NCBI GenBank assembly: GCA_903858935.1 | Contig: CAIOKO010000172.1 | Coordinates: forward strand, 1 to 64,000 | Origin: an uncultured Schlesneria sp. | GTDB taxonomy: Bacteria; Planctomycetota; Planctomycetia; Planctomycetales; Planctomycetaceae | Direction of reading: 5' to 3' | Length of the DNA stretch: 64,000 nt | Shown here: positions 916 to 14,152 of the stretch, piece by piece | Numbering within the stretch: position 1 is the stretch's first letter | Layout: each line of letters opens with the position of its first letter | Translations under genes and position numbers: made by a program | Notes under the pieces: generated by a model | Databases searched by the model: none | Told to the model about the DNA's origin: nothing | What the model saw: only the letters and a program-made list of their open reading frames with translations

Positions 916-1782
916 ATGGCGTTTGATCTCTACGAAGATTCTTTTGGTGACCATCGAAATGCACAGGCCCTGGCTAAGGCATCAGAACTGGCCTACCTTC
1001 CGGAAGATCTCGGAAAAGCAGAGTTTGCAGCAGTTCTGGGACTCGATGCGCGACTGATCAGTGTCGGAAATACTCAGGCTTATATTGCACAGAATGCGAA
1101 TAATATCGTTGTCGCTTTTCGGGGGACGGAGTCTCCCACAACGTTCGAGGGTCTGAAAGACTGGCTGCTCTCGGATGCTGTCAACCTGTTAATCCTGCCA
1201 ACCGGTCGTCTGGGGACGGATTTTGCTGCTGCCGGAGTTGGAGCCCGGTTTCATCAAGGGTTCATTAACGCTTTGGATGACATCTGGCTGCCGTTGTTTT
1301 CGGGCGTTGAAGACGAATTAAAACGAGCAGACCGTCCGTTATGGATCACCGGTCACAGTCTGGGGGGCGCATTGGCCGTACTGAGCGCCTGGCTTTTCAC
1401 GCGTAAATTTGTGAACGTCCACCAGGTCTATACATTTGGCGGCCCGATGATTGGAAACGTCGAGGCTTCCAAGGCCTTTGATCGAGAACTTGCCGGTAAG
1501 GTTTTTCGGTACGTGAATGGTCCCGATCCGGTCCCGAAGCTTCCGACAATGAGCCTGATTGCGAACGACTATGGTCACGTTCAAAAAGAAATGTCGACTG
1601 GAGTCGGGCCCGGTGCATCATCGTCGGCAGCACTATTCACCGAATTCGTCAGCCGATCAGCCAACGGAGTCATTCAAGGGACCTTAATTGACGATGTCTG
1701 GAAAGCTATCTCACAAACGGTCGAAGCCCATCTGATGCCCAGCTATCACAGTATGATCGACCGACTGATGGGGAAGAAGTAG
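916..1782 (+). CDS. Class 3 lipase-like alpha/beta hydrolase
   Basis: A 288-residue protein of the fungal-type Lipase_3 family, expected to hydrolyse acylglycerols or other esters. The nucleophile elbow is GHSLGGAL (Ser about residue 144). Upstream is the VAFRGTES segment typical of the oxyanion region. The acid residue is probably Asp in NGPDPVPKLP (about 205), and the catalytic His may lie in DYGHVQ or in the C-terminal SYHSMI. No signal peptide is visible, so it may be cytoplasmic. The start ATG follows a GGTGG-containing stretch. It converges on the cyclopropane synthase gene to its right and appears to be transcribed alone. Substrate unknown. Confidence 0.88.
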   Translation: MAFDLYEDSFGDHRNAQALAKASELAYLPEDLGKAEFAAVLGLDARLISVGNTQAYIAQNANNIVVAFRGTESPTTFEGLKDWLLSDAVNLLILPTGRLGTDFAAAGVGARFHQGFINALDDIWLPLFSGVEDELKRADRPLWITGHSLGGALAVLSAWLFTRKFVNVHQVYTFGGPMIGNVEASKAFDRELAGKVFRYVNGPDPVPKLPTMSLIANDYGHVQKEMSTGVGPGASSSAALFTEFVSRSANGVIQGTLIDDVWKAISQTVEAHLMPSYHSMIDRLMGKK

Positions 1783-1809
1783 AAGAAACAAACGCCATAA
1801 CGTAACGCC

Positions 1810-3105
1810 TCATTTAACCTCGAAAGCGCTGGATCGGCAGCCGGGCTTTGCCATTACCAACTGCACAAGTCCGCAGTTTCGCTCGAGAAAAGCCCCTTCG
1901 CAGTAGCAAAGATAATAGTCCCACATCCGAATAAAACGATCGTCAAATCCAAGTCGTCTGACTTCGGTGATCTGCTCGAAGAACCGAGTTCGCCAGTCGC
2001 GAAGGGTCTTCGCGTAGTGCACCGCGAAGTCTTCCATGTGGGTCAAACGTAAGTCTGTCGAACGAGTTAACACATTGCAGACGTGGGTCACCGACGGCAG
2101 GCACCCGCCTGGAAAGATGTATCGCTGGATGAAATCAACATTGCGGACATAGCCTTGATACAACTGGTCGGCGATCGTGATTCCCTGCAGGACGAACAGA
2201 CCATCTGGTTTCAATAATCGACTGCAGCATTGAAAATAGGTGTCAAAGAATTCATGTCCGACCGCTTCGATCATCTCAATCGAGACGAGTTTGTCGTATT
2301 GGCCTTTAAGATCGCGGTAATCCTGCATCACGACAGTAACGCGGTCGCTCAGTCCTGCATCAGCAATTCGCCCGGTTGCCATTTCAAATTGTTCGCGTGA
2401 AATCGTGGTTGTTGTCACGCGGCAGCCGAAGTTCTGCGCTGCGTGCAAAGCAAAGCCGCCCCAACCAGTTCCGATTTCCAGAAGATGGTCCTGTGGTGAG
2501 AGTCGAAGTTTCTGGCAAATCCGTTCATTCTTCGCCGTCGAGGCATCGAACAGCGTGCTGTCAGTTTTTTCGTAGATGCCGCAGGAGTACATCATCGTGT
2601 CATCAAGAAACAGCTTGAAAAAATCGTTCCCCAGATCGTAATGCGCGGCAATGTTTTTGCGGCTACCTCGTCGGGAATTACGATTCAAACGATGAGCAAT
2701 TTGGTAGAGCGGCTCGAACATCAAGGAGAGCCATCCCGGTTTGGCGGCTTGTGTTTGCGAATTGACAACCAGAATTCGGACAAGATCCGTCAAATTGTCG
2801 CAGGTCCAGTCGCCGTCCATAAACGATTCCGCAGCGCCAAGGTCTGCTCCGAATGCTGCTCGTGGAAAAAACCGTGAGTTTCGAACAGTTAAAACCACAT
2901 GAAAAGGACAATTCAGCGTCGTTTCCCCAAACGATTGCTGAGACGATCCCTCAACGAGCGTGATTTTGCCTTGTTCGATCCCTTTGAGACGCGAAATGAC
3001 CGCGTTCCTCGCAAATTTCTCACGAAGACAACGAGGAGAGACATCGCGTTCGCGGCAATAATTTTCCAATGACATTGTTGATTGCGATTCGCTGATGCTG
3101 CTCAT
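1810..3105 (-). CDS. cfa: Cyclopropane-fatty-acyl-phospholipid synthase (canonical type)
   Basis: A 431-residue SAM-dependent enzyme expected to add a methylene bridge across cis double bonds of membrane phospholipid acyl chains. The catalytic domain shows AHYDLGNDFFKLFLDDTMMY followed by the YSCGIY motif, whose Cys helps bind the catalytic bicarbonate in E. coli CFA synthase. The SAM-binding glycine loop is LEIGTGWGGFALHAA, then SIEMIEAVG and FPGGCLPS. The N-terminal region (residues 40-130) matches the usual CFA lipid-binding extension. The length is close to the family norm. It is the last gene of the sigma-led operon, starting 4 nt after the DUF1365 stop, so translational coupling is likely. 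Confidence 0.93.
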   Translation of the reverse strand: MSSISESQSTMSLENYCRERDVSPRCLREKFARNAVISRLKGIEQGKITLVEGSSQQSFGETTLNCPFHVVLTVRNSRFFPRAAFGADLGAAESFMDGDWTCDNLTDLVRILVVNSQTQAAKPGWLSLMFEPLYQIAHRLNRNSRRGSRKNIAAHYDLGNDFFKLFLDDTMMYSCGIYEKTDSTLFDASTAKNERICQKLRLSPQDHLLEIGTGWGGFALHAAQNFGCRVTTTTISREQFEMATGRIADAGLSDRVTVVMQDYRDLKGQYDKLVSIEMIEAVGHEFFDTYFQCCSRLLKPDGLFVLQGITIADQLYQGYVRNVDFIQRYIFPGGCLPSVTHVCNVLTRSTDLRLTHMEDFAVHYAKTLRDWRTRFFEQITEVRRLGFDDRFIRMWDYYLCYCEGAFLERNCGLVQLVMAKPGCRSSAFEVK

Positions 3106-3109
3106 GGTG

Positions 3110-3949
3110 TCAGTTTTCTATGGAATCTTGGGTCGGAGTTTCCGTTTGAAGAATCTTATCTGATTCGTCCAATCGGTTACTTTTAGGATGAGGTACGTAC
3201 GGAATACGTTTCCACCACAGCCGCAATGCCTGCCAATAGATATTGGCCATAACTCGTGCTGTCATCAATGGATACAAAGCAAGGACTCTTGCGAGCGACC
3301 AAGTCGTGATTTCCTGCCGTTTGAGATTTAAAGTCGCATCAAAACAAACATGTTCATCTCGCCAATTTTCGGCTTGCAGTACAAGTTGATCACTCGGGCC
3401 GACCAGATTCCAGCGATATTCAAAGTCCATCGTCATAAACGGCGAAACGTGAAACGATTTAGCAAAACGAAACTTATGTTTTTCTGGTTCGCCTGATGAT
3501 CCGGCAGGATGATTCTGTTTTGAGTCGACAACAGTCAAGACATAACAGTGTCGTTCCCGCCACGGCGTATTCGTGACTTCCGCGACGATGTATTGGATGC
3601 GACCTCCTGTTTCATCAAAACAAAAGAACACGCTCAATGGGTTGAAGCAATATCCAAGATAACTTAAATGAGTCAGCAGCCGAATGGGTCCGTCGGGACG
3701 GTTACCCGTTTGAGTTTCGACAAGTTTTCGCACTGTTTCGTCCAGCGGTTGGCTTGTGTCGCCGAAATGATCGCGCCGCCGAAACGTGGCGACGTTCCAA
3801 TTTTCAATCGACCATAACCACCGACGTTGAAACACGAGCGGAAGTTCGTTGAGGTCGAGATACATCATAAAGAGCGATGCACGAAATTCGTGCCGAACAG
3901 GCTCGAGTCTTCGGTGCCGAACCGTCCCTTCATAAATGCCACTCTGCAT
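3110..3949 (-). CDS. DUF1365 family protein
   Basis: A 279-residue protein of family DUF1365, whose biochemical activity is not established. It is recognised by its opening IYEGTVRHRR with RHEFRASLFMMYLDLNELP, and by the family signature LTHLSYLGYCFNPLSVFFCF around residues 98-117. Members occur repeatedly beside an FAD amine-oxidase-like protein and a CFA synthase in Proteobacteria and elsewhere, which suggests a role in handling modified fatty acids. Here it lies exactly between those two genes. No signal peptide; there is one hydrophobic patch. Family call is confident; the function is inferred from context only. Confidence 0.9.
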   Translation of the reverse strand: MQSGIYEGTVRHRRLEPVRHEFRASLFMMYLDLNELPLVFQRRWLWSIENWNVATFRRRDHFGDTSQPLDETVRKLVETQTGNRPDGPIRLLTHLSYLGYCFNPLSVFFCFDETGGRIQYIVAEVTNTPWRERHCYVLTVVDSKQNHPAGSSGEPEKHKFRFAKSFHVSPFMTMDFEYRWNLVGPSDQLVLQAENWRDEHVCFDATLNLKRQEITTWSLARVLALYPLMTARVMANIYWQALRLWWKRIPYVPHPKSNRLDESDKILQTETPTQDSIEN

Positions 3950-3997
3950 GATCCAGCCCTAACGATCAGCGTTTTTTTGAGTTGCTGCTGACAACTT

Positions 3998-5239
3998 CTA
4001 TTCGATACCGAAGGCCTTCGCTACGACCAGAGCGCTTTTCACTCCATCTTCATGAAACCCAAAGCCCCAGTAGGCACCGCAAAAATGCGTTCGATTGCTG
4101 AGATTACTGATCTCCGTATGGCGACGTTGCGACAAGACTGCCGCTGGAGAATAGATTGGATGTTCATAAACAAACCGTCCCAGAATTTTGTCGGGACGAA
4201 TGGCGTCTTCCCTGTTAAGCGTCACACAGAATGGTTCGGTAGAACTCAATCGCTGAAGAATGTTCATCTGGTAAGTCACTGATGGCGCATCAAGCGGGCT
4301 GTTAGACAAATGGTAATTCCAACTGGCCCACGCACGCCGCCGCTTTGGCAATAAGGACGCATCGGTGTGGAGCACGGCGATATTCTTTGAACAGACAAAC
4401 GGGGTTAAGACCTCACGTTCGACGGCACTCGGGTCGCTAAGCAACCGAAGTGCCTGGTCACCATGAGTGGCGAACACAACCTGATCGAATTGTTCAGGAC
4501 CGGATGCTGACGTCACGTTAACGTGGTCTTCGTTTCGACGCACAGAAATCACCGGGCAATTTAACCGAATTCGATCACGAAAAGATTCCGTCAATCGGTC
4601 AATGTATCTCCAGGAACCTCCGACGATTGTTCGCCAGATTGGACGATCTGTCAGCGTGACGAGTCCGTGATTAACGAGAAACTGTATGAAGTAGCGAGCC
4701 GGAAACTCCAGCATTTTCGATGGCGATGTTGACCAGATCGCGGCTCCCATAGGGATCAAATAATTCTCGCGAAACGTCTCTGAATAATGACCCCGATCGA
4801 GATAATCACCCAGTGAAATATCAGAAGAGTCCTCCGACAATAATTGGGGGGATTGGCGGTTGAATCGGAGGATTTCCATCAGCATTTGCAGAAACGATGG
4901 GCGGAATAGATTCGTTCGCTGGGCGAATAGTGTGTTAAGTGACGTTCCACAATATTCCAGACCCGTCCGCTCGCACTTCACGCTGAAGCTCATTTCGCTT
5001 TCTTGTGATTCAACACCAAGAAGATCGAGCAACTTGCAGAAATTCGGGTATGTTCGCTTGTTAAAAACGATAAAGCCCGTGTCAATCGCGTAAGGCCGTC
5101 CATCTTTTTCGACCGTAACAGTATGCGTGTGTCCGCCGACATAATCGTTTGCCTCGAATACTGTGATCGAGTGCTCGCGTTGGAGGTACCATGCAGCAAC
5201 CATGCCCGAGATTCCAGTCCCGATGATCGCAATCTTCAT
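3998..5239 (-). CDS. FAD-dependent amine-oxidase-like oxidoreductase (fatty-acid cluster type)
   Basis: A 413-residue flavoprotein with an N-terminal dinucleotide-binding motif, IIGTGISGMVAAWYL, then the FEANDYVGGHTHTV segment that seats FAD. The C-terminal HFCGAYWGFGFHEDGVKSA closes the FAD site in this subfamily. Relatives sit beside CFA synthase and DUF1365 in Rhodobacter and Pseudomonas clusters linked to singlet-oxygen or membrane stress, where a desaturase or oxidase acting on methylated or unsaturated acyl chains has been proposed. The substrate here is inferred, not shown. It starts at ATG 5239, 105 bp after the upstream methyltransferase, and is 48 bp from DUF1365. Confidence 0.88.
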   Translation of the reverse strand: MKIAIIGTGISGMVAAWYLQREHSITVFEANDYVGGHTHTVTVEKDGRPYAIDTGFIVFNKRTYPNFCKLLDLLGVESQESEMSFSVKCERTGLEYCGTSLNTLFAQRTNLFRPSFLQMLMEILRFNRQSPQLLSEDSSDISLGDYLDRGHYSETFRENYLIPMGAAIWSTSPSKMLEFPARYFIQFLVNHGLVTLTDRPIWRTIVGGSWRYIDRLTESFRDRIRLNCPVISVRRNEDHVNVTSASGPEQFDQVVFATHGDQALRLLSDPSAVEREVLTPFVCSKNIAVLHTDASLLPKRRRAWASWNYHLSNSPLDAPSVTYQMNILQRLSSTEPFCVTLNREDAIRPDKILGRFVYEHPIYSPAAVLSQRRHTEISNLSNRTHFCGAYWGFGFHEDGVKSALVVAKAFGIE

Positions 5240-5344
5240 GACGATGCCTTATCACGTTCCCGACGATAAACCGTACAAAGCGTCTGGTTTCAATCCACGA
5301 ATTCAGGGGTGTGAAATAGAAATCCCGAAAATTCAATGAATCGT

Positions 5345-6385
5345 TCACAATCCCTCACGCCTGGAAAAAAGGAAATGAGCGACTCCCCACTCCTCTCCCC
5401 CGCAATAGCCGAATAACTCGGCGCACGCGATATAGAACATTCTCCATCGCTGAAACATCACCTTCGACAGTTTGTCGCCGTAAGTTGTCTGGAACAGGGG
5501 CAGGATTTGCTCGCGCGATGAATCGTGACGTTTCAGCCAAGACTCAAGCGTTTTCTGGTAGTGCTGACCGTTGATGAGCCAACGATCTTCGAATAACAAG
5601 TCGCGTTGGAATTCTAGAAACAAGTCGGCTGAAGGCATCAGTCCGCCGGTGAAAAAATGGCGAGCCATCCAGTCGTTGTTTCCGTCGGTCTCAAACGGAT
5701 AGGCGCAGCGACCGTGATAGAAAACGTGGGCAAAAAGTTTTCCTTTTGGCTTGAGCCAGCGGGATATTCTTGCAAATAACTCTTCGTAGTTACGCATATG
5801 TTCAAACATTTCGACTGAAACAACTCGATCGAATGTACGATCAGTTTGAAAGTCGTTCATATCTTGCGTCTCGACAACAAGATTCGAAATGCCCCGAATG
5901 TTTGCTTGATCGAGTATGAATTTTTTCTGAGACGCTGAATTCGAAATCGCGAGAAATCGGCTGCCGGGAAATCGTTCGGCCATAAATAGTGACAACGAAC
6001 CCCAGCCGCAACCAAGCTCCAGGATCTGCATTCCGTCGTGCAAACCCGCTCGCTGACAGGTCAGTTCCAGCATTTTCTGCTCGGCAGTACGCAGGTCAAC
6101 GACTCGGTCAGGCCAGAGACAAGAACTGTATTTTCGATGTGGACCAAGGACCAACTCGAAATAGGCCGCAGGAACTTCGTAATGCTGCTGATTTGCAAAG
6201 TCGGTATGAAGCGCGATGGGACTCTTACGAATTTCCGCCACAAATGATCGATGCAGTTCGCTCAGACCCTCACATCCGAGTCGAGATTCTTCGAGGAGAC
6301 GCGCGGCAAGTAGCCGACGGATTCCGAAACGGATCAGTCGATCAGGCAACCAACCTTGTTCTGCAAGCTCTAAACCAGACAGCAT
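5345..6385 (-). CDS. CFA-synthase-like SAM-dependent methyltransferase (non-canonical)
   Basis: A 346-residue protein of the cyclopropane-synthase/methyltransferase superfamily. It shows HTDFANQQHYEVPAAYFELV, the SAM loop LELGCGWGSLSLFMAERFP and SVEMFEHMRNYEELF. It departs from canonical CFA synthase at two hallmarks: YSCxY reads KYSSCLW (Cys displaced by one), and FPGGCLPS reads FTGGLMPS. It also lacks the long N-terminal domain. Such shorter relatives can act as plain acyl-chain methylases rather than cyclopropanases. Frame-compatible TTG at 6430 exists, but ATG 6385 lies just after the DUF1295 stop and gives the family-like MLSGLELAEQGWLPD start. A methylase role is inference. Confidence 0.88.
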   Translation of the reverse strand: MLSGLELAEQGWLPDRLIRFGIRRLLAARLLEESRLGCEGLSELHRSFVAEIRKSPIALHTDFANQQHYEVPAAYFELVLGPHRKYSSCLWPDRVVDLRTAEQKMLELTCQRAGLHDGMQILELGCGWGSLSLFMAERFPGSRFLAISNSASQKKFILDQANIRGISNLVVETQDMNDFQTDRTFDRVVSVEMFEHMRNYEELFARISRWLKPKGKLFAHVFYHGRCAYPFETDGNNDWMARHFFTGGLMPSADLFLEFQRDLLFEDRWLINGQHYQKTLESWLKRHDSSREQILPLFQTTYGDKLSKVMFQRWRMFYIACAELFGYCGGEEWGVAHFLFSRREGL

Positions 6386-6402
6386 TCGATACCCGTGTTC
6401 AA

Positions 6403-7197
6403 TTAATCTGAAGATTTCTTCGGGAACCAAGGAACGAACATGCTAGTTGTCTGCTGATATTTTCGGTAGTCGTCGCCGCGACTGATCAGCGCTTGCGCTT
6501 CTGTTGCTGGGATACCGGTCACTTTAAACAAAAAAAACCACATCAGCGCCGGAGCAGAAATGGTTATCCAGCCCAATGGAGTCATCCACGCGATTACGAC
6601 ATAAGTCCACCAGTGCAGCCATTCGAAAAAATAATTGGGATGACGTGAATAATTCCACAACCCGTTTCGACAGGTTGTTCCTCGATTGGACGGGTTGGCA
6701 CGAAACCGAGCCAGTTGAATATCAGCGAGAGTTTCACCGGAGACCGAAAATCCCCAGATTGATACTCCAATGAAATCCCAGGCATCAATCGGGGCGCTGC
6801 GTTGCATCGCCAGCCAGAAGGAAAGTGAAAAGAACCAGGCAAGTAACGCCTGCAATTGGAAGAATCCGAAAAAAAACAGGTTGGCCCGAGGTCCGAATGC
6901 CGCCCGCAACTTCTGGTAGCGACCGTCCTCTGGTTTTCCGAGAACTCGATCACCAAGTAGATAAAGAGCGAGTCGCATTGACCAGATAAATGCAATCGTT
7001 GCGACCACCCCAGTTCGCCAGGTGAAATGGGGTTGGGTTATGCCGTAGAACACGGACAGAAAGCCGAGACATCCTGACCAACCCACATCCACGATGCCGG
7101 CATCGCGTGTCCGGCACTGGATACACCACAGCACGAGCATCAGCAGGCTTGAGAAAAACAAACCCCACGCAAGTTGTGAAGAAGCGGTGAGACTCAT
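6403..7197 (-). CDS. DUF1295 integral membrane protein (steroid reductase/isoprenylcysteine methyltransferase-like)
   Basis: A 264-residue polytopic membrane protein with about six or seven hydrophobic segments, beginning LAWGLFFSSLLMLVLW. The family signature NYSRHPNYFFEWLHWW is at about residues 188-203; in related families this motif contributes to cofactor binding. DUF1295 members are annotated as steroid-5-alpha-reductase-like, but most have no tested activity. The ATG at 7197 overlaps the stop of the sigma factor gene as ATGA, so translation is directly coupled. Its position in a fatty-acid-modifying operon suggests a reductase or methyltransferase acting on lipid. The function is inferred. 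Confidence 0.88.
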   Translation of the reverse strand: MSLTASSQLAWGLFFSSLLMLVLWCIQCRTRDAGIVDVGWSGCLGFLSVFYGITQPHFTWRTGVVATIAFIWSMRLALYLLGDRVLGKPEDGRYQKLRAAFGPRANLFFFGFFQLQALLAWFFSLSFWLAMQRSAPIDAWDFIGVSIWGFSVSGETLADIQLARFRANPSNRGTTCRNGLWNYSRHPNYFFEWLHWWTYVVIAWMTPLGWITISAPALMWFFLFKVTGIPATEAQALISRGDDYRKYQQTTSMFVPWFPKKSSD

Positions 7198-8132
7198 GCG
7201 TTCGCCGAAGCCAGTTGTCGTCGATTGTATTCGACTGCCACGGCGTGCAATTTCTTCAAGGCGTTTCCTTCGACTTGTCGGACGCGCTCTTTGCAAATCC
7301 CCAATTCACTCGAAAGTTGCATCAAAGTCTTAGGCTCTCCTCGCCCATTTAAACCAAATCGCCCTTCGATAATTTGACGCTCACGTTCGGTGAGGTGATC
7401 CGACATCACTTCAACCATGTGTTCCATCAGCCGAGCTTCAGCCGGTGCATCATAGTCGACTTCCTGATGGTCAGGTGCCGACATCATGATTTCAGGGTCT
7501 GTGACCGAAAACCGCTTCCGATCCTTTTGTTTCCGTTCAATTTTTCGGAAAAAGCTTCGTCGAATTGCGTGGGTGGCGTAGGTGCTGAATCGAAAACCGA
7601 GTTGGTAATTGAACTTTTCAACCGCTTCCATCAATGAGAGCGAGCCATCGCTAACCAAATCTTCGAAACCATAACTCGACGTGCAGTACTTTCCGGCGTT
7701 TAAAACGACGAGTCGCATGTTCGACCGAATAATATGATCCCGTGCGTCTTTGGCATCGGAAAGCAATCGCTCGATCTGGTTTAATACCTTTACGTCGGGT
7801 TGATCGGCATCAAGAGACAACTGCAATCGAGACGCCTGGAATTTCAAGAAATTCATTCGGCGAAATTCGTGTTGCTCTTCGGCGAATGACAGCAGCGGCT
7901 CACCCAAGGCTGGAGCGAGGCAGGGAAGATTTTCAGCTTCAACTTCCTCTTGAACCCTTGGTGAAGGATTCACCGGGACGGTTTCGAATACGCCTGGACG
8001 AATCTGTGCGTTAAGCATTGATTCAAACTCGTCGCTTTCGATGAATTCGATTTCAATCTTCAAGATTCGTTCCAACAGCAATCGGTTCTTGCTGACTTCG
8101 GATTCATTCATTGATGATGCTGCCAACTTCAT
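7194..8132 (-). CDS. Sigma-70 family RNA polymerase sigma factor leading a lipid operon
   Basis: A 312-residue sigma factor. Region 2 (about residues 138-200) shows RLVVLNAGKY, FEDLVSDGSLSLMEAVEKF and FSTYATHAIRRSFFRKI, covering core binding and -10 recognition. Region 4 (about 240-300) shows LTERERQIIEGRFGL and the helix-turn-helix CKERVRQVEGNALKKL. Region 1.2 is only weakly recognisable and region 3 is short, so it is a group 2/3-like factor, not the housekeeping RpoD and not an ECF factor. The frame remains open upstream to 8369 but that part is not protein-like. The start at ATG 8132 has a poor ribosome site. The stop overlaps the DUF1295 start. No anti-sigma gene is adjacent. Confidence 0.9.
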   Translation of the reverse strand: MKLAASSMNESEVSKNRLLLERILKIEIEFIESDEFESMLNAQIRPGVFETVPVNPSPRVQEEVEAENLPCLAPALGEPLLSFAEEQHEFRRMNFLKFQASRLQLSLDADQPDVKVLNQIERLLSDAKDARDHIIRSNMRLVVLNAGKYCTSSYGFEDLVSDGSLSLMEAVEKFNYQLGFRFSTYATHAIRRSFFRKIERKQKDRKRFSVTDPEIMMSAPDHQEVDYDAPAEARLMEHMVEVMSDHLTERERQIIEGRFGLNGRGEPKTLMQLSSELGICKERVRQVEGNALKKLHAVAVEYNRRQLASANA

Positions 8133-8178
8133 AATCGTCCACTGCCCAACCAGAAGGAATTCAAAACGTTCAAATCGT

Positions 8179-8223
8179 TCAGCTAGAAGATGGTAGTCGA
8201 TCGCTCCGGAACGGCAATGGCAT
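8179..8223 (-). CDS. Possible 14-residue leader peptide upstream of the sigma gene
   Basis: A tiny frame MPLPFRSDRLPSSS begins at ATG 8223 directly after an A-run containing AAAGGAAAA, a ribosome-binding match whose spacing is rather short. It ends 46 nt before the sigma start, which itself has a weak ribosome site. The arrangement would suit coupled or attenuated translation of the sigma factor, but a chance occurrence in A-rich DNA cannot be excluded. Confidence 0.25.
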   Translation of the reverse strand: MPLPFRSDRLPSSS

Positions 8224-8304
8224 TTTTCCTTTTTTTTTACATTTTTCCTAAAGCTGCCCAAATACCATGTTTTTATGCATAATACACTCGATGTGTTGTT
8301 TTGT

Positions 8305-8334
8305 ATCGTACTATATTGCAAACAAAAAGTTAAC
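8305..8334 (-). promoter_or_regulatory. Candidate promoter for the sigma-lipid operon
   Basis: On the minus strand TTAACT (8329-8334) and TACGAT (8305-8310) are separated by 17 nt, each matching four of six positions of the sigma-70 consensus. It would give a leader of about 165 nt before ATG 8132. Only a pattern match. Confidence 0.3.
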
Positions 8335-8590
8335 GCTACATTCATGTTGAGTGATTTGGATATCGTCAAAATCGTTCACCTGGGTATTTGATCGATTTCC
8401 CCAGCGACTAAATCGGTCATTGTAATTTCAACACCTTAGAATGCGATATGTGATTTAAAATGATACGCTTTTGTCTTGGTCAACAAATGTCCGCGGTTGA
8501 GGAGAACCGAAGAAATTTCTTTACCGCTCACAGATTATTGGAATATGGATTCAAATCGTTGCTGGCTTTGCGAAAAATCGACCACTTACA

Positions 8591-8624
8591 AAACAAAAAA
8601 CGTGGGACGAATTTCGTCCCACGT
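8591..8624 (-). terminator. Rho-independent terminator of rplU
   Basis: A near-perfect hairpin with arms ACGTGGGACGAA and TTCGTCCCACGT around a single T (8600-8624). Read on the minus strand it is followed by TTTTTTGTTT. It lies about 36 nt after the rplU stop, so it ends the rng-rplU transcript and separates it from the sigma operon. Confidence 0.88.
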
Positions 8625-8659
8625 TCTAAATTTTTCGTTGAATCGACCGAAAACAGCAA

Positions 8660-9058
8660 TCAAGTTGCGGCTGTTGCCACAGCAGGGGCTTCGGATGAAG
8701 GGGCATCTACTGCTTTTGGCCGTTCAATTACCTGAAGGTTGGGAATTGTAATTCCGGTAATTTTCACACGGGTATATTTCTGACGATGTCCGGTGTGACG
8801 CTTAGAGGCATTCCGGCGATGAAAAGTCTGAATTTCCAGCTTCAGGCCTTTCAATAGTGCGGTCACAACTTCCGCAGTGACAGTCGCCCCGGAAATAACG
8901 GGTTGACCGACAATACTTGGACCCCCACCATTGGCGAGCAGGACCTTGTCAAACGTAATTGCCTGACCGTCATTAACATTATTTCGATAATCAATGGCTA
9001 GGACATCGCCCATTTGGACTCGAAATTGTCGACCACCGTCTTCAAATACTGCGAACAT
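8660..9058 (-). CDS. rplU: 50S ribosomal protein L21
   Basis: A 132-residue bL21, a large-subunit protein that binds 23S rRNA. It opens MFAVFEDGGRQFRVQMGD, a clear family start, and the C-terminal signature KRHTGHRQKYTRVKITGI is present. About 25 residues of Ala/Pro/Thr-rich tail extend beyond the usual end near residue 103-105. ATG 9058 has AAGG eight bases upstream. It follows the RNase G gene by 94 bp on the same strand. The usual partner rpmA (L27) is not next to it; a terminator follows instead. Confidence 0.96.
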   Translation of the reverse strand: MFAVFEDGGRQFRVQMGDVLAIDYRNNVNDGQAITFDKVLLANGGGPSIVGQPVISGATVTAEVVTALLKGLKLEIQTFHRRNASKRHTGHRQKYTRVKITGITIPNLQVIERPKAVDAPSSEAPAVATAAT

Positions 9059-9152
9059 TGCATCGACCTTGAAAGCGCTTGCCCTGTTTTCCAGAGCAAC
9101 CTATTGGCGTACCGACTCTGGCGACCCAGAGGGGAAGGGAAAGAATACCGAT

Positions 9153-11407: not shown

Positions 11408-13159
11408 TCAGTCCATCTGCATTAAATCAGGGCAGAGTCGCCTCAGTTCCCCTCCAAGATAGTTCTCAACATCACGAGCGACTTCCAGAGTCTCGGCTCG
11501 AGCGGCGATTTTTTCCGCCTTTGAGATCGTCAGATTTCGAATAACCTCCTTCAGTTCAGGAATTGCGTGGGGTGTAACACTAAATTGGCGAATTCCCATT
11601 CCAATCAGCAGCGGCAGGAATACCGCGTCGGAACTCATTTGGCCACAAACAGAAACGGGGATGTTGTGCTTCCTTGCTGCATTAACGACGTTACGGATCA
11701 TTCGCAGAATCGAAGGGTCTCCCGATCGATAAAGATTTGCAACGGCTTGATCTGCCCGATCCACAGCGAGAGTGTACTGGATCAGGTCATTAGTCCCAAG
11801 CGAGAAGAAGCCGACTTCTTGAGCAAATTCTTCCGCCATAATCGCAGCCGACGGGACCTCGACCATCATTCCAATCGGAACATCCCGTCGAAATGGGATT
11901 CCCTGTTCCTCTAAATCTTCCACTACGTCACTGAGGACCATCTTTGCCTGACGATATTCCAGCAACGTCGAAATCAACGGAAACATGATCCGAAGATCTC
12001 CAAATTCGGCTGCTCTCAGTGCCGCCCTCAACTGTGTTTTGAACAGTTGAAGATGCTGAAGGCTCAGCCGAATGCTCCGCACGCTCAACGCGGGATTTAC
12101 ACTTTCAGGATACTTCGCGCGCAAGGCTCCGGGCATTTTGTCAGATCCGAGATCAAGCGTTCGAATTGTAACTGGCTGATTAGGAAACGCCTTCAAGACC
12201 TGGCAGTAAGCCTGATAATGATCTTCTTCAGTCGGCTCACGATTTGATTCAAGATACAGAAACTCAGTTCGATAAAGTCCGATTCCCGCCGCACCCTTTT
12301 CTTTGCAAGGACCAGCTTCCTGGGGAAATTCGATATTGCCAAGCAGGCTGATTGCGACTCCGTCTTGAGTCTCACAGGGAAGCTTACTAAGCGATTTCAA
12401 CCGCCGTTCATGGCTTCGGAATCGTTCTTCAGAATCCCGGTATTTGACGAGCGTCTCTTCATCCGGATCGATGATGACCACGCCATGACTGCCGTCAATA
12501 ATAATCGTTTCAGAACCGGTAACATCCGACAGAAATTTTCCAATTCCCACCACCGCCGGGATTTCCATTGCTCCTGCGAGAATTGCTGTATGACTCGTGT
12601 GGCCGCCAACTTCCGTTGCAAAGCCAAGGACAAATTTACGGTCTAAATTCGCAGTCTCGCTTGGTGTCAGATTACTCGCCAATACGAGCACGGGTCCGGT
12701 GAGATTTCCCAACTCCTCTCGTCTTTCGCCCAGTAAATGGCGCAAGATCCGCTTTTCGAGGTCAAAAATATCGACAGAACGCTCCGCAAGGTAATGCCCA
12801 CCAAGGTTTTGAAGTTGCTTGGCATACTGGCCGAGTACCTGACTGACAGCATATTCTGGTGATTGTTTCTGCTTGATTCGCGTTTCGACCTGCTCGATAA
12901 GCTGTGGATCACGCACGAGCATCAAATGTGCCGAGAAAATCGCCGCGTACTGCTCTCCCAAACGTTCGCGGGCCAGTTTTTCGTTAAGCGAGATCTCTCG
13001 GCACACAGCGTCGAGGGCTGAGTGAAAGCGGTTCAGTTCAAACCCGACGGCACTCGCCGATAAATAGCGGTGCGGGATTCGAAAATTCTCGGAACCGAGG
13101 ACCATCGCTGGACCAATCGCCACGCCGGGCGAAACTGCGATGCCGCGTTTGATCTGCAT
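11408..13159 (-). CDS. ptsI: PTS enzyme I (phosphoenolpyruvate-protein phosphotransferase)
   Basis: A 583-residue enzyme I that autophosphorylates from phosphoenolpyruvate and passes the phosphate to HPr. The start [18 protein letters not shown] is standard. The phosphorylated His is in [21 protein letters not shown]. The PEP-binding barrel shows [27 protein letters not shown] and [18 protein letters not shown]; the catalytic Cys is in [11 protein letters not shown] near the C terminus. There is no N-terminal GAF domain, so it is ptsI-like rather than ptsP-like. ATG 13159 is chosen over an upstream TTG. It lies 48 bp after HPr in an hpf-IIA-HPr-EI series. Confidence 0.95.
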
Positions 13160-13207
13160 AAATGACAACAATCTACAGGGAACATCGCCACAGTTAGTAA
13201 CAATGAA

Positions 13208-13501
13208 TTAAACAGCCCGAGGCGGCGATTGAAAACCACACGAGAAAAGTTCAGTCACTTCGTTTAAAACATCAATTGCATCCGGTCCAGCCACCTCAAG
13301 TTCAAGGTTCGTTCCTTGTTCCGCAGCCAACGTAAGTAACTCCAACAAGCTTTTTGCGTCGGCTCGCGTCTTACCTCGAGAAAGTATTACGGAACTTTGA
13401 TGTTGTTGTGCGGCGAGCGCGATCAATTGACAGGGGCGAAAATGGAGCCCCTGATCATTGATTACGGTAACCGTTCGTCGATGAATAACTGCCTCAGACA
13501 T
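13208..13501 (-). CDS. ptsH: HPr family phosphocarrier protein
   Basis: A 97-residue phosphocarrier of the PTS. The phosphoacceptor His is in [14 protein letters not shown] (family consensus GLHARP). The regulatory-serine segment reads [18 protein letters not shown], so the Ser used by HPr kinase in other bacteria is conserved. The C terminus [13 protein letters not shown] matches the last helix. The frame extends upstream to 13642 without family similarity, so I start at ATG 13501, giving [13 protein letters not shown]. It lies between the IIA gene and enzyme I, an obvious phosphorelay neighbourhood. Confidence 0.92.
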
Positions 13502-13681
13502 GATGAATCGTTCATCACGTGGATGTTTCGAACCAAGTGACACGGTTTGCGGATATGCTGGCAAAACAATAGAGAAGTGTCGAAAGACAGTACTGTATAT
13601 CAACGCTTCTCTTGGAAACCCTGCTTTGAACCCGGAATACATCTGCGTTTTTCCCGATGATCAACCACATCGGGAAATCCA

Positions 13682-14152
13682 TTAGATTTCGTTATTGTCA
13701 GCTTCTGTCAGAAGCTCCCAAATATCTTCGCTGGTCTTTGATTGGCGTAGAAATTTGCAGAAGTGATCGTTGCGCAAATGCCGTGAAATGTTTTCAAGGC
13801 CCCTCAAATGATCACCAGGTCGATCCGGCGGTGAAACGAGTAAAAAGATGATGTAAACCGGTTCGCCGTCTAAACTGGCAAAATCTACTCCTTCTTTGGC
13901 AAGTGCGATTGCTGCGATAAGTTTGTCTGTCGAGCCGTGTTTCGTGTGCGGAACCGCAACCCCGCGTCCGATTCCAGTCGAACCAAGCTCTTCTCGTTTC
14001 AGAATTGCAGCAACAATGTTTTCTTCGTCCTCAGCCTTAATGCTGCCCGCCTTTTGAAGGCTGGCCACCATGGCGCGAATTGCTGATTCTTTAGTTCCGG
14101 CTGGAAGTTCCGGAACTATTGCTCCTGGAACAACGAAGTCACACAACTTCAT
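13682..14152 (-). CDS. ptsN: PTS fructose/nitrogen-type IIA protein
   Basis: A 156-residue PTS EIIA-2 (fructose/mannitol/Ntr) domain. It begins [23 protein letters not shown]; the phosphorylated His is in [17 protein letters not shown], followed by the [18 protein letters not shown] strand. There is no attached IIB or IIC domain and no permease gene nearby, so it is more likely a regulatory output of the PTS chain (as PtsN is) than a transport component. The ATG is preceded by AAGGGGAAAA, a strong ribosome site. hpf lies immediately upstream, as in the rpoN-hpf-ptsN clusters of Proteobacteria. Confidence 0.92.

Follow-up and report, generated by a model that had tools for sequence, protein, structure and literature searches.

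A tandem 9-bp repeat and a MerR protein point to a probable photo-oxidative-stress regulon with a putative furan fatty acid operon in Planctomycetota

In Rhodobacter sphaeroides, methylated furan fatty acids are made jointly by UfaD, a desaturase, UfaM, an S-adenosylmethionine (SAM)-dependent fatty-acyl methylase, and UfaO, a DUF1365 protein (PMC7380195), and the RpoE regulon of this organism comprises cfaS, phrA, RSP_1090/1091, the fasciclin gene RSP_1409 and folE2 (PMC7074977). In Chlamydomonas, singlet-oxygen induction of CFA1, CFA2, DUF1365, DUF1295, DUF2177, SOUL1, SOUL2 and FAS2 requires SAK1 (PMC4067076). Class II LitRs of Pseudomonas putida take part in the light induction of ufaM, phrB and folE (PMC9758184), and in Vibrio cholerae the response to blue light involves, besides SigmaE-ChrR, a MerR protein (VCA0056) encoded in a predicted operon with phr (PMC5241685). 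The locus described here is a predicted operon of six leftward genes, headed by a sigma70-family factor gene and preceded by a tandem 9-bp repeat, in a stretch of 64,000 nucleotides (the window; contig CAIOKO010000172.1 of assembly GCA_903858935.1, positions 1 to 64,000) from an uncultured Schlesneria sp. of the Planctomycetota. An earlier reading of the letters alone (the sequence-only reading) had compared it to the flavin adenine dinucleotide (FAD) oxidoreductase, DUF1365 and cyclopropane fatty acid (CFA) synthase set that accompanies an extracytoplasmic function (ECF) sigma-ChrR pair in Proteobacteria, and had proposed a self-contained, autoregulated stress and lipid module.

Our own explanation, which we regard as probable, is that the operon is the furan fatty acid (FuFA) arm of a planctomycete photo-oxidative-stress regulon that is repressed by a MerR protein at the repeat. 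As long as the cells are dark or unstressed, transcription would be blocked by a CarH/LitR-like MerR occupying the tandem repeat just 3' of the -10 box; light or singlet oxygen would lift this block, allowing one transcript to supply the lipid enzymes along with the sigma factor. By methylation, desaturation and oxidation, the enzymes would turn the unsaturated chains of phospholipids into furan fatty acids scavenging singlet oxygen, and the sigma factor would carry the response on to further genes. In the clade of the window, a foreign FuFA cassette would have been placed behind a native, repeat-controlled sigma gene, the family's own cassette having presumably been lost.

The six genes at 1810-8132 are all present on the minus strand, in the order and with the families read from the letters, including the ATGA at 7194-7197 that is common to the stop codon of the sigma gene and the start codon of the DUF1295 gene. 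The features are as follows.

1810..3105, minus strand: methylase of the CFA synthase family, UfaM or CFA synthase (CMAS, E 1.5e-87)
3110..3949, minus strand: DUF1365 protein, candidate member of the UfaO family (furan-forming oxygenase; E 1.5e-83)
3998..5239, minus strand: FAD-dependent oxidoreductase (FAD amine oxidase match, E 2.6e-24), candidate member of the UfaD family
5345..6430, minus strand: MT2, a second CFA-like SAM methylase (CMAS, E 5e-39)
6403..7197, minus strand: DUF1295 membrane protein (E 1.3e-65)
7194..8132, minus strand: sigma70-family factor, head of the operon, with region 1.2-like, 2 and 4 matches and region 3 absent
8163..8180, minus strand: tandem 9-bp repeat GAACGATTT-GAACGTTTT, putative operator of a CarH/LitR-like MerR, ending 30 bp 5' of the sigma start
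8190..8217, minus strand: putative promoter TTGCCG-N16-TACCAT of weak consensus, just 5' of the repeat, proposed from sequence
8597..8627, minus strand: terminator-like hairpin of 14 pairs, 3' of the upstream ribosomal L21 gene, which it parts from the sigma operon

For MT2, the ATG at 6385 is a likelier start than position 6430. Counted from this ATG, the gap between the DUF1295 gene and MT2 is 17 bp, followed by gaps of 105 bp (MT2/FAD), 48 bp (FAD/DUF1365) and 4 bp (DUF1365/CFA). A terminator scan found nothing within the 105-bp gap 5' of the FAD gene; over 1500-9100 it gave 17 matches compared to 9.3 (standard deviation 3.0) in shuffles, most of them weak intragenic stems.

By their Pfam matches, the FAD, DUF1365 and CFA proteins of the window belong to the families of UfaD, UfaO and UfaM, and the lipid genes look able to make FuFA. 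Relatives were sought in 150 genomes of the order, all from one family, 107 of which contain DUF1365. The loci fetched for comparison number 107, stem from 105 genomes and partly end at contig edges; DUF1365 matches outside this set are G066:C137, two fragments of G093, and G142:C64 (G denotes genomes, L fetched loci, and C after G a contig). FAD, DUF1365 and CFA genes occur together in 99 of the 107 loci and all five lipid families in 67, with MT2 often adjoining the cluster in relatives. Three arrangements were observed: FAD-DUF1365-CFA-MT2-DUF1295 (type A); sigma-(DCC)-FAD-DUF1365-CFA-DUF1295-MT2, usually with a divergent MerR gene (type B, 19 loci); and sigma-DUF1295-MT2-FAD-DUF1365-CFA (type C), found in the window and three genus relatives. 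A DCC1-like thiol-disulfide gene, of which one copy was scanned with Pfam, is located directly 5' of the FAD gene in 16 loci (L058, L097, L090, L107 and other type-B loci), with the sigma gene usually next to it. The order FAD-DUF1365-CFA is also found in many phyla (L279-L358), often with MT2, DUF1295 or photolyase genes nearby.

The repeat has the consensus GAACGWTTT-GAACGWTTT. A single exact copy occurs in the 7.93-Mb genome, at the sigma gene, and a scan of the window allowing up to two mismatches likewise returned one match (chance mean 0.07). Within 1.90 Mb of fetched loci, 42 sites with at most one mismatch were observed, 37 of them near sigma, FAD or MerR starts, a count that omits the window's own site due to a wrong start call. 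With a refined pattern, 56 exact sites were found in 41 of the 150 order genomes and none in the reversed control. The genes following them are sigma (29), MerR (21), FAD (4), fasciclin (19), photolyase (1), FolE, a GTP cyclohydrolase (1), and a pyrroloquinoline quinone (PQQ) protein (1), in overlapping classes. Sigma, MerR or FAD genes follow 33 of the 56 sites, fasciclin a further 19, and FolE and PQQ one each, with nothing recognised at two; 53 sites precede sigma, CarH/LitR-like MerR, FAD, fasciclin, photolyase or FolE genes, although the fasciclin, FolE, photolyase and PQQ classes were named only after the sites had been inspected. Outside the order, 294 genomes of the phylum yielded 15 sites in 10 genomes, with none in the reversed control, and with the proteins fixed beforehand 14 of these 15 held-out sites, in five of six genera, adjoin genes for fasciclin, MerR, FAD or sigma proteins. 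A repeat with two mismatches also begins 39 bp before a fasciclin ORF (open reading frame) of the window genome; since this genome has 12 such sites, compared to 7 for the reversed control, the placement is no more than suggestive. A reading of the repeat as a coding signature was rejected: it reads MNDLND in some ORF extensions, yet it also precedes unrelated genes.

Next to the repeat, the pair TTGCCG-N16-TACYAT is kept in the three closest relatives (L039-L041), with one base changed in L041; a consensus scan did not report the TTGCCG-N16-TACCAT pair of the window. A similar layout of repeat and promoter is located 5' of the FAD gene in L139, a locus of the same genus with a type-A cluster.

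Within the order, a MerR gene is present in 40 of the 41 repeat-bearing genomes and in 71 of the 109 without the repeat (Fisher p 1.5e-5, for related genomes which are not independent). G015 and G020, for example, have neither DUF1365 nor this MerR. Among the ten repeat-bearing genomes outside the order, nine have the MerR gene and the tenth (G277) a helix-turn-helix (HTH) fragment only, and a full-length sigma factor of this kind occurs in two (G409, G359). Because the repeat co-occurs with MerR and not with sigma, this correlation favours MerR rather than the sigma factor as the probable reader of the repeat.

The opposite assignment, in which the repeat is the sigma factor's own promoter and the factor switches on its operon in a self-contained loop, appears unlikely to us. 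It draws on the 29 of 56 sites that precede sigma genes and on the orientation of the sites: at all 54 classified sites, the repeat shares its strand with a gene of another class than MerR (sigma, fasciclin, FAD, FolE or PQQ), which a promoter would need, and MerR genes are divergent. As a sigma promoter the repeat was nevertheless set aside, since most repeat-bearing genomes outside the order (8 of 10) are without a full-length sigma factor, and seven of these eight have MerR together with a repeat by FAD, fasciclin or MerR genes. Furthermore, the repeat is found 5' of FAD genes where no local sigma gene exists (L129, L176, L257, L262), the sites differ in number and in their distance from the start codon, and in the window a separate promoter-like pair is situated upstream. 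The autoregulation supposed by the sequence-only reading is thus not borne out, given that the repeat tracks the CarH/LitR-like MerR rather than sigma, and neither is the self-containment, since the promoter element of the sigma gene tracks a MerR which in this genome is encoded on another contig (C85, 51712-52611), where its gene, the sole MerR match, overlaps a photolyase gene.

Several observations weigh against repression by MerR at the repeat. The motif was spotted by eye and then refined, so that only the sites outside the order provide a clean test; five of the ten genomes concerned represent a single genus, and 4 of the 14 held-out hits (L363, L376, L378, L379) show only a divergent MerR gene. 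No exact site is present in 109 of the 150 order genomes, including the 71 with MerR, and none with up to one mismatch accompanies the MerR-photolyase pair of the window genome. The 93%-complete genome G130 has the repeat without MerR, and in G018, G044 and G056 (L152, L181, L175) the sigma gene is located beside the cluster with neither MerR nor an exact repeat; sigma must therefore be controlled otherwise there. The tandem direct repeats in these upstream regions, which may overlap promoters, have a period of 9 bp, in contrast to the 11-bp direct repeats of CarH operators (PMC8156234). Finally, the suggested link to light comes from gene content only.

Among regulatory genes near the cluster, those for MerR proteins with a CarH-like architecture are the most frequent (44 of the 107 loci, at up to 4 kb), 20 loci having both MerR and sigma. 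The two genes also lie side by side away from lipid genes, e.g., in G025, G075, G087, G101, and G042, and photolyase genes adjoin the sigma gene in L057 and L232 (above the Pfam cut-off) and are near it in L045 and L046 (sub-threshold). In G114 (C2, C13, C23, C50), four MerR genes are each located about 1.3 kb or less from a sigma gene, which suggests an expanded regulatory pair. The MerR of the window genome matches the cobalamin-binding MerR-like chain 8jbs over residues 3-270 (E 4.7e-19), and the architecture of CarH, a MerR HTH with a B12-binding domain, is found. In L113, B12-binding_2 was above the cut-off together with an HTH (HTH_17 just below), and B12-binding remained below (25.3 vs 32.1); L057 has B12-binding_2 above the cut-off and an HTH, and L139 an HTH only.

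CarH is defined by ExHxxG and Wx9EH (PMC8156234). Instead of the latter, Wx9ER occurs in 45 of the 46 MerR proteins of the fetched loci, and among 80 non-redundant MerR rows the glutamate is followed by R in 68 and by H in 12, the latter all from outside the order. The lower-ligand histidine of ExHxxG is present in none of the 80 rows, with Y in 75 and C in two, including the window genome, whose own MerR has R and C at the two ligand positions. Due to the failure of two CarH-defining features, this MerR is better compared, as judged from its sequence, with its B12-independent relatives, namely CarA or class II LitR (PMC8156234, PMC9758184). MerR relatives near FuFA clusters in L309 and L353 (Acidobacteriota) and in L316 (Ectothiorhodospiraceae) keep EH and have Tyr at the lower-ligand position.

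The sigma protein comprises 312 aa with sigma70 regions 2 and 4 (Pfam). Its best models are MzaA, RpoS and RpoD, each below its cut-off, and the generic sigma70-ECF superfamily model TIGR02937 passes (88.7 vs 42.9 bits); an assignment to the anti-phage sigma MzaA was rejected at 138.6 bits compared to a cut-off of 800. Principal sigma factors of solved structure align to residues 79-199 and 227-296, leaving 27 residues between the aligned blocks in contrast to 87 in HrdB, with region 3 missing. The length of 312 aa and the region 1.2-like stretch speak against an ECF factor, whereas the absence of region 3 resembles one. A non-ECF factor, as initially supposed, fits the sequence on the strength of the best models, though TIGR02937 passes and region 3 is missing.

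Orthologues with 83-90% identity occur in G045, G038, and G069, and with 64-67% identity in G052, G054, and G043. In a survey of 15 genomes of the genus, an orthologue is thus found in seven including the window (64-90% identity), and the cassette adjoins it in four. In G052, the sigma gene is located after the L21 gene with no lipid genes near, and a type-A cluster is situated elsewhere in the genome. In the fetched set, 31 of the 107 loci have a sigma gene of this kind no more than 2.5 kb from the cluster, compared to an expectation of about 0.5, based on the three full-length genes for such sigma factors in the 7.9-Mb genome; in a few loci it is divergent from or downstream of the cluster. 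On the sigma tree, which left out 9 of 61 rows with short alignments, a total of 8 changes (gains or losses) of the linkage label are required, at least 5 of which are forced by well supported branches. The linkage of sigma and cluster thus exceeds chance, and the exact order is restricted to 4 of the 15 genus genomes, other genera differing in order and in cassette lineage.

ChrR was above the TIGR02451 cut-off in none of the 150 order genomes, with sub-threshold matches in 62 and a best score of 30.9 vs 124.5 bits in the window genome. No local anti-sigma gene was recognised by eye in the window cluster, ChrR being the only anti-sigma searched for. The tie of this sigma factor to the lipid set without a recognised anti-sigma, as first read from the letters, is therefore retained. 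DCC1-like and AhpC/TSA-like membrane proteins recur next to the sigma gene in other loci, and none is present in the window cluster. In detail, a membrane-protein gene lies 3' of the sigma gene on the same strand in L048, L121, L144, L152, L162, L175, and L181; of the two proteins scanned, that of L144 matches AhpC/TSA above the cut-off and that of L152 below it, and such proteins are possible redox partners or regulators of the sigma factor.

Genes that follow the repeat or share its neighbourhoods include those for fasciclin, SOUL, GTP cyclohydrolase I, photolyase, a photolyase-related protein, SRPBCC and DUF2177 proteins. In L265, a SOUL heme-binding gene is located just 3' of a repeat-preceded fasciclin gene (941-1603, 1670-2830), and both families are among the SAK1-dependent genes of Chlamydomonas. 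The stress role supposed beforehand is suggested by the repeat-bearing genes other than those of the operon (fasciclin, photolyase, FolE, light-type MerR). The genes for CFA synthases are classically associated with stationary phase or acid, and light data are not known for these species, so that a cyclopropane-type lipid operon serving membrane homeostasis under a general stress sigma factor (cold, acid, stationary phase), and not light, has to be weighed. This seems rather improbable, slightly more so than autoregulation, since the same repeat precedes photolyase, fasciclin, FolE and light-regulator-type MerR genes, and DUF1365 and FAD proteins belong to furan fatty acid synthesis (PMC7380195).

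As to the origin of the cassette, trees were calculated for subsets of the loci with 79, 45 and 27 rows. In the 79-row tree of FAD, DUF1365 and CFA, 38 rows of the order and one metagenome-assembled genome titled Pirellulaceae (L304) are united in one clade (SH 0.999), outside which the four rows of the window and its relatives are found, among Nitrospirota, Proteobacteria and other rows. A careful tree of 45 rows concurs (family clade 100/99). A constraint joining the window to the clade that contains its genus relatives was rejected in the 27-row tree (log-likelihood 96 lower, p-AU 4e-11), for a group picked after the 79-row and 45-row trees had been inspected; a constraint uniting the window and the whole family as one clade was not rejected in the 45-row tree (p-AU 0.096). 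The rows from outside the order were selected among the 80 with the greatest similarity to the window's DUF1365, which introduces a bias. A second DUF1365 is absent from the four genomes. The rows nearest by path are those of Binatota and Latescibacterota, a statement of nearness only by which no donor is assigned. Because descent with the clade of the genus relatives is rejected, most likely the cassette came from outside and was placed behind a native sigma gene in the clade of the window (4 of 15 genus genomes).

An insertion of this kind could also have left sigma and lipid genes adjacent without co-regulation. The foreign appearance of the cassette in this clade agrees with such a chance neighbourhood, as does the fact that in three of the seven genus genomes with this sigma factor the cluster is not beside the sigma gene. 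Given that order and strand are identical in all four genomes, that the linkage of sigma and FuFA genes recurs in other genera, and that the type-A cluster of a genus relative (L139) itself bears the repeat, we consider it very improbable, much more so than the two preceding alternatives.

Upstream of the sigma operon, genes for ribosomal protein L21 and RNase E/G are located, preceded at 11408-14152 by a run of genes encoding PTS (phosphotransferase system) enzyme I, HPr and EIIA (Pfam). On its other side, at 269-1782, the cassette is flanked by class-3 lipase and Dabb stress-barrel genes, which are kept in L039-L041 with 93-95% identity.

With a MerR-repressed regulon as the preferred explanation, the Planctomycetota would gain a defined regulon for photo-oxidative stress, and through its readable DNA tag the members could be listed from sequence. 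A similar protective set (furan lipids, photolyase, fasciclin, SOUL, FolE) would then answer to regulators of three kinds, namely ECF/ChrR in Proteobacteria, SAK1 in an alga and the planctomycete one, which points to a conserved physiological unit. The locus would also be a case of a foreign metabolic cassette placed under an existing stress promoter, with a CarH relative whose sensing must do without the usual B12 ligands. Taken together, the comparison suggests a sunlight-stress response that may be wired differently from the known one. More tentatively, and with somewhat less than even confidence, it is tempting to speculate on a switch for light or singlet oxygen that has no described counterpart: a MerR of the CarH fold that has lost both cobalamin histidines (EH to ER, ExH to DxY) and senses otherwise would bind 9-bp direct repeats and release a cascade led by a sigma70 factor without region 3, and the lineage of the window would have captured a foreign furan-lipid cassette behind this sigma gene, rebuilding by insertion a sigma/FuFA operon that other genera made separately.

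The physiological kind of this response is known, and its wiring looks new. A full-text search of the literature, limited to open-licence papers, found no paper joining planctomycetes with furan fatty acids, nor was such a system named in the titles of 15 papers listed out of 54 on neighbouring subjects. Streptomyces reportedly employs a LitR-type MerR and an ECF sigma factor, LitS, that directs light-induced genes; its ECF sigma, carotenoid gene targets and B12 dependence set it apart from the planctomycete system. In V. cholerae, the pairing of MerR and photolyase genes and the participation of a sigma factor in one light response are shared, but the factor is SigmaE with ChrR, and a pathway common to MerR and ChrR is left open there (PMC5241685). 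The SAK1-dependent genes of Chlamydomonas are much alike in content (PMC4067076), with a eukaryotic regulator and neither sigma nor MerR. Class II LitRs of Pseudomonas (PplR, PmlR2) are LitR-type MerR proteins thought to be B12-free and are tied to ufaM, phrB, folE, cryB and an FAD oxidoreductase; of the B12 domain they retain the helix-bundle half alone, and they are served by a short LOV protein (PMC9758184), whereas some planctomycete MerRs recognisably keep both halves of the domain without the ligands, and a sigma factor is added. The RpoE (ECF11)-ChrR system of R. sphaeroides likewise unites FuFA enzymes, photolyase, fasciclin and GTP cyclohydrolase in one regulon, with FuFA genes beside the sigma gene (PMC7380195, PMC7074977). 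In the planctomycete system, by contrast, the sigma factor is not clearly ECF, no ChrR is above the cut-off, the candidate switch is MerR with a shared repeat, and the cassette also includes DUF1295 and a second methylase.

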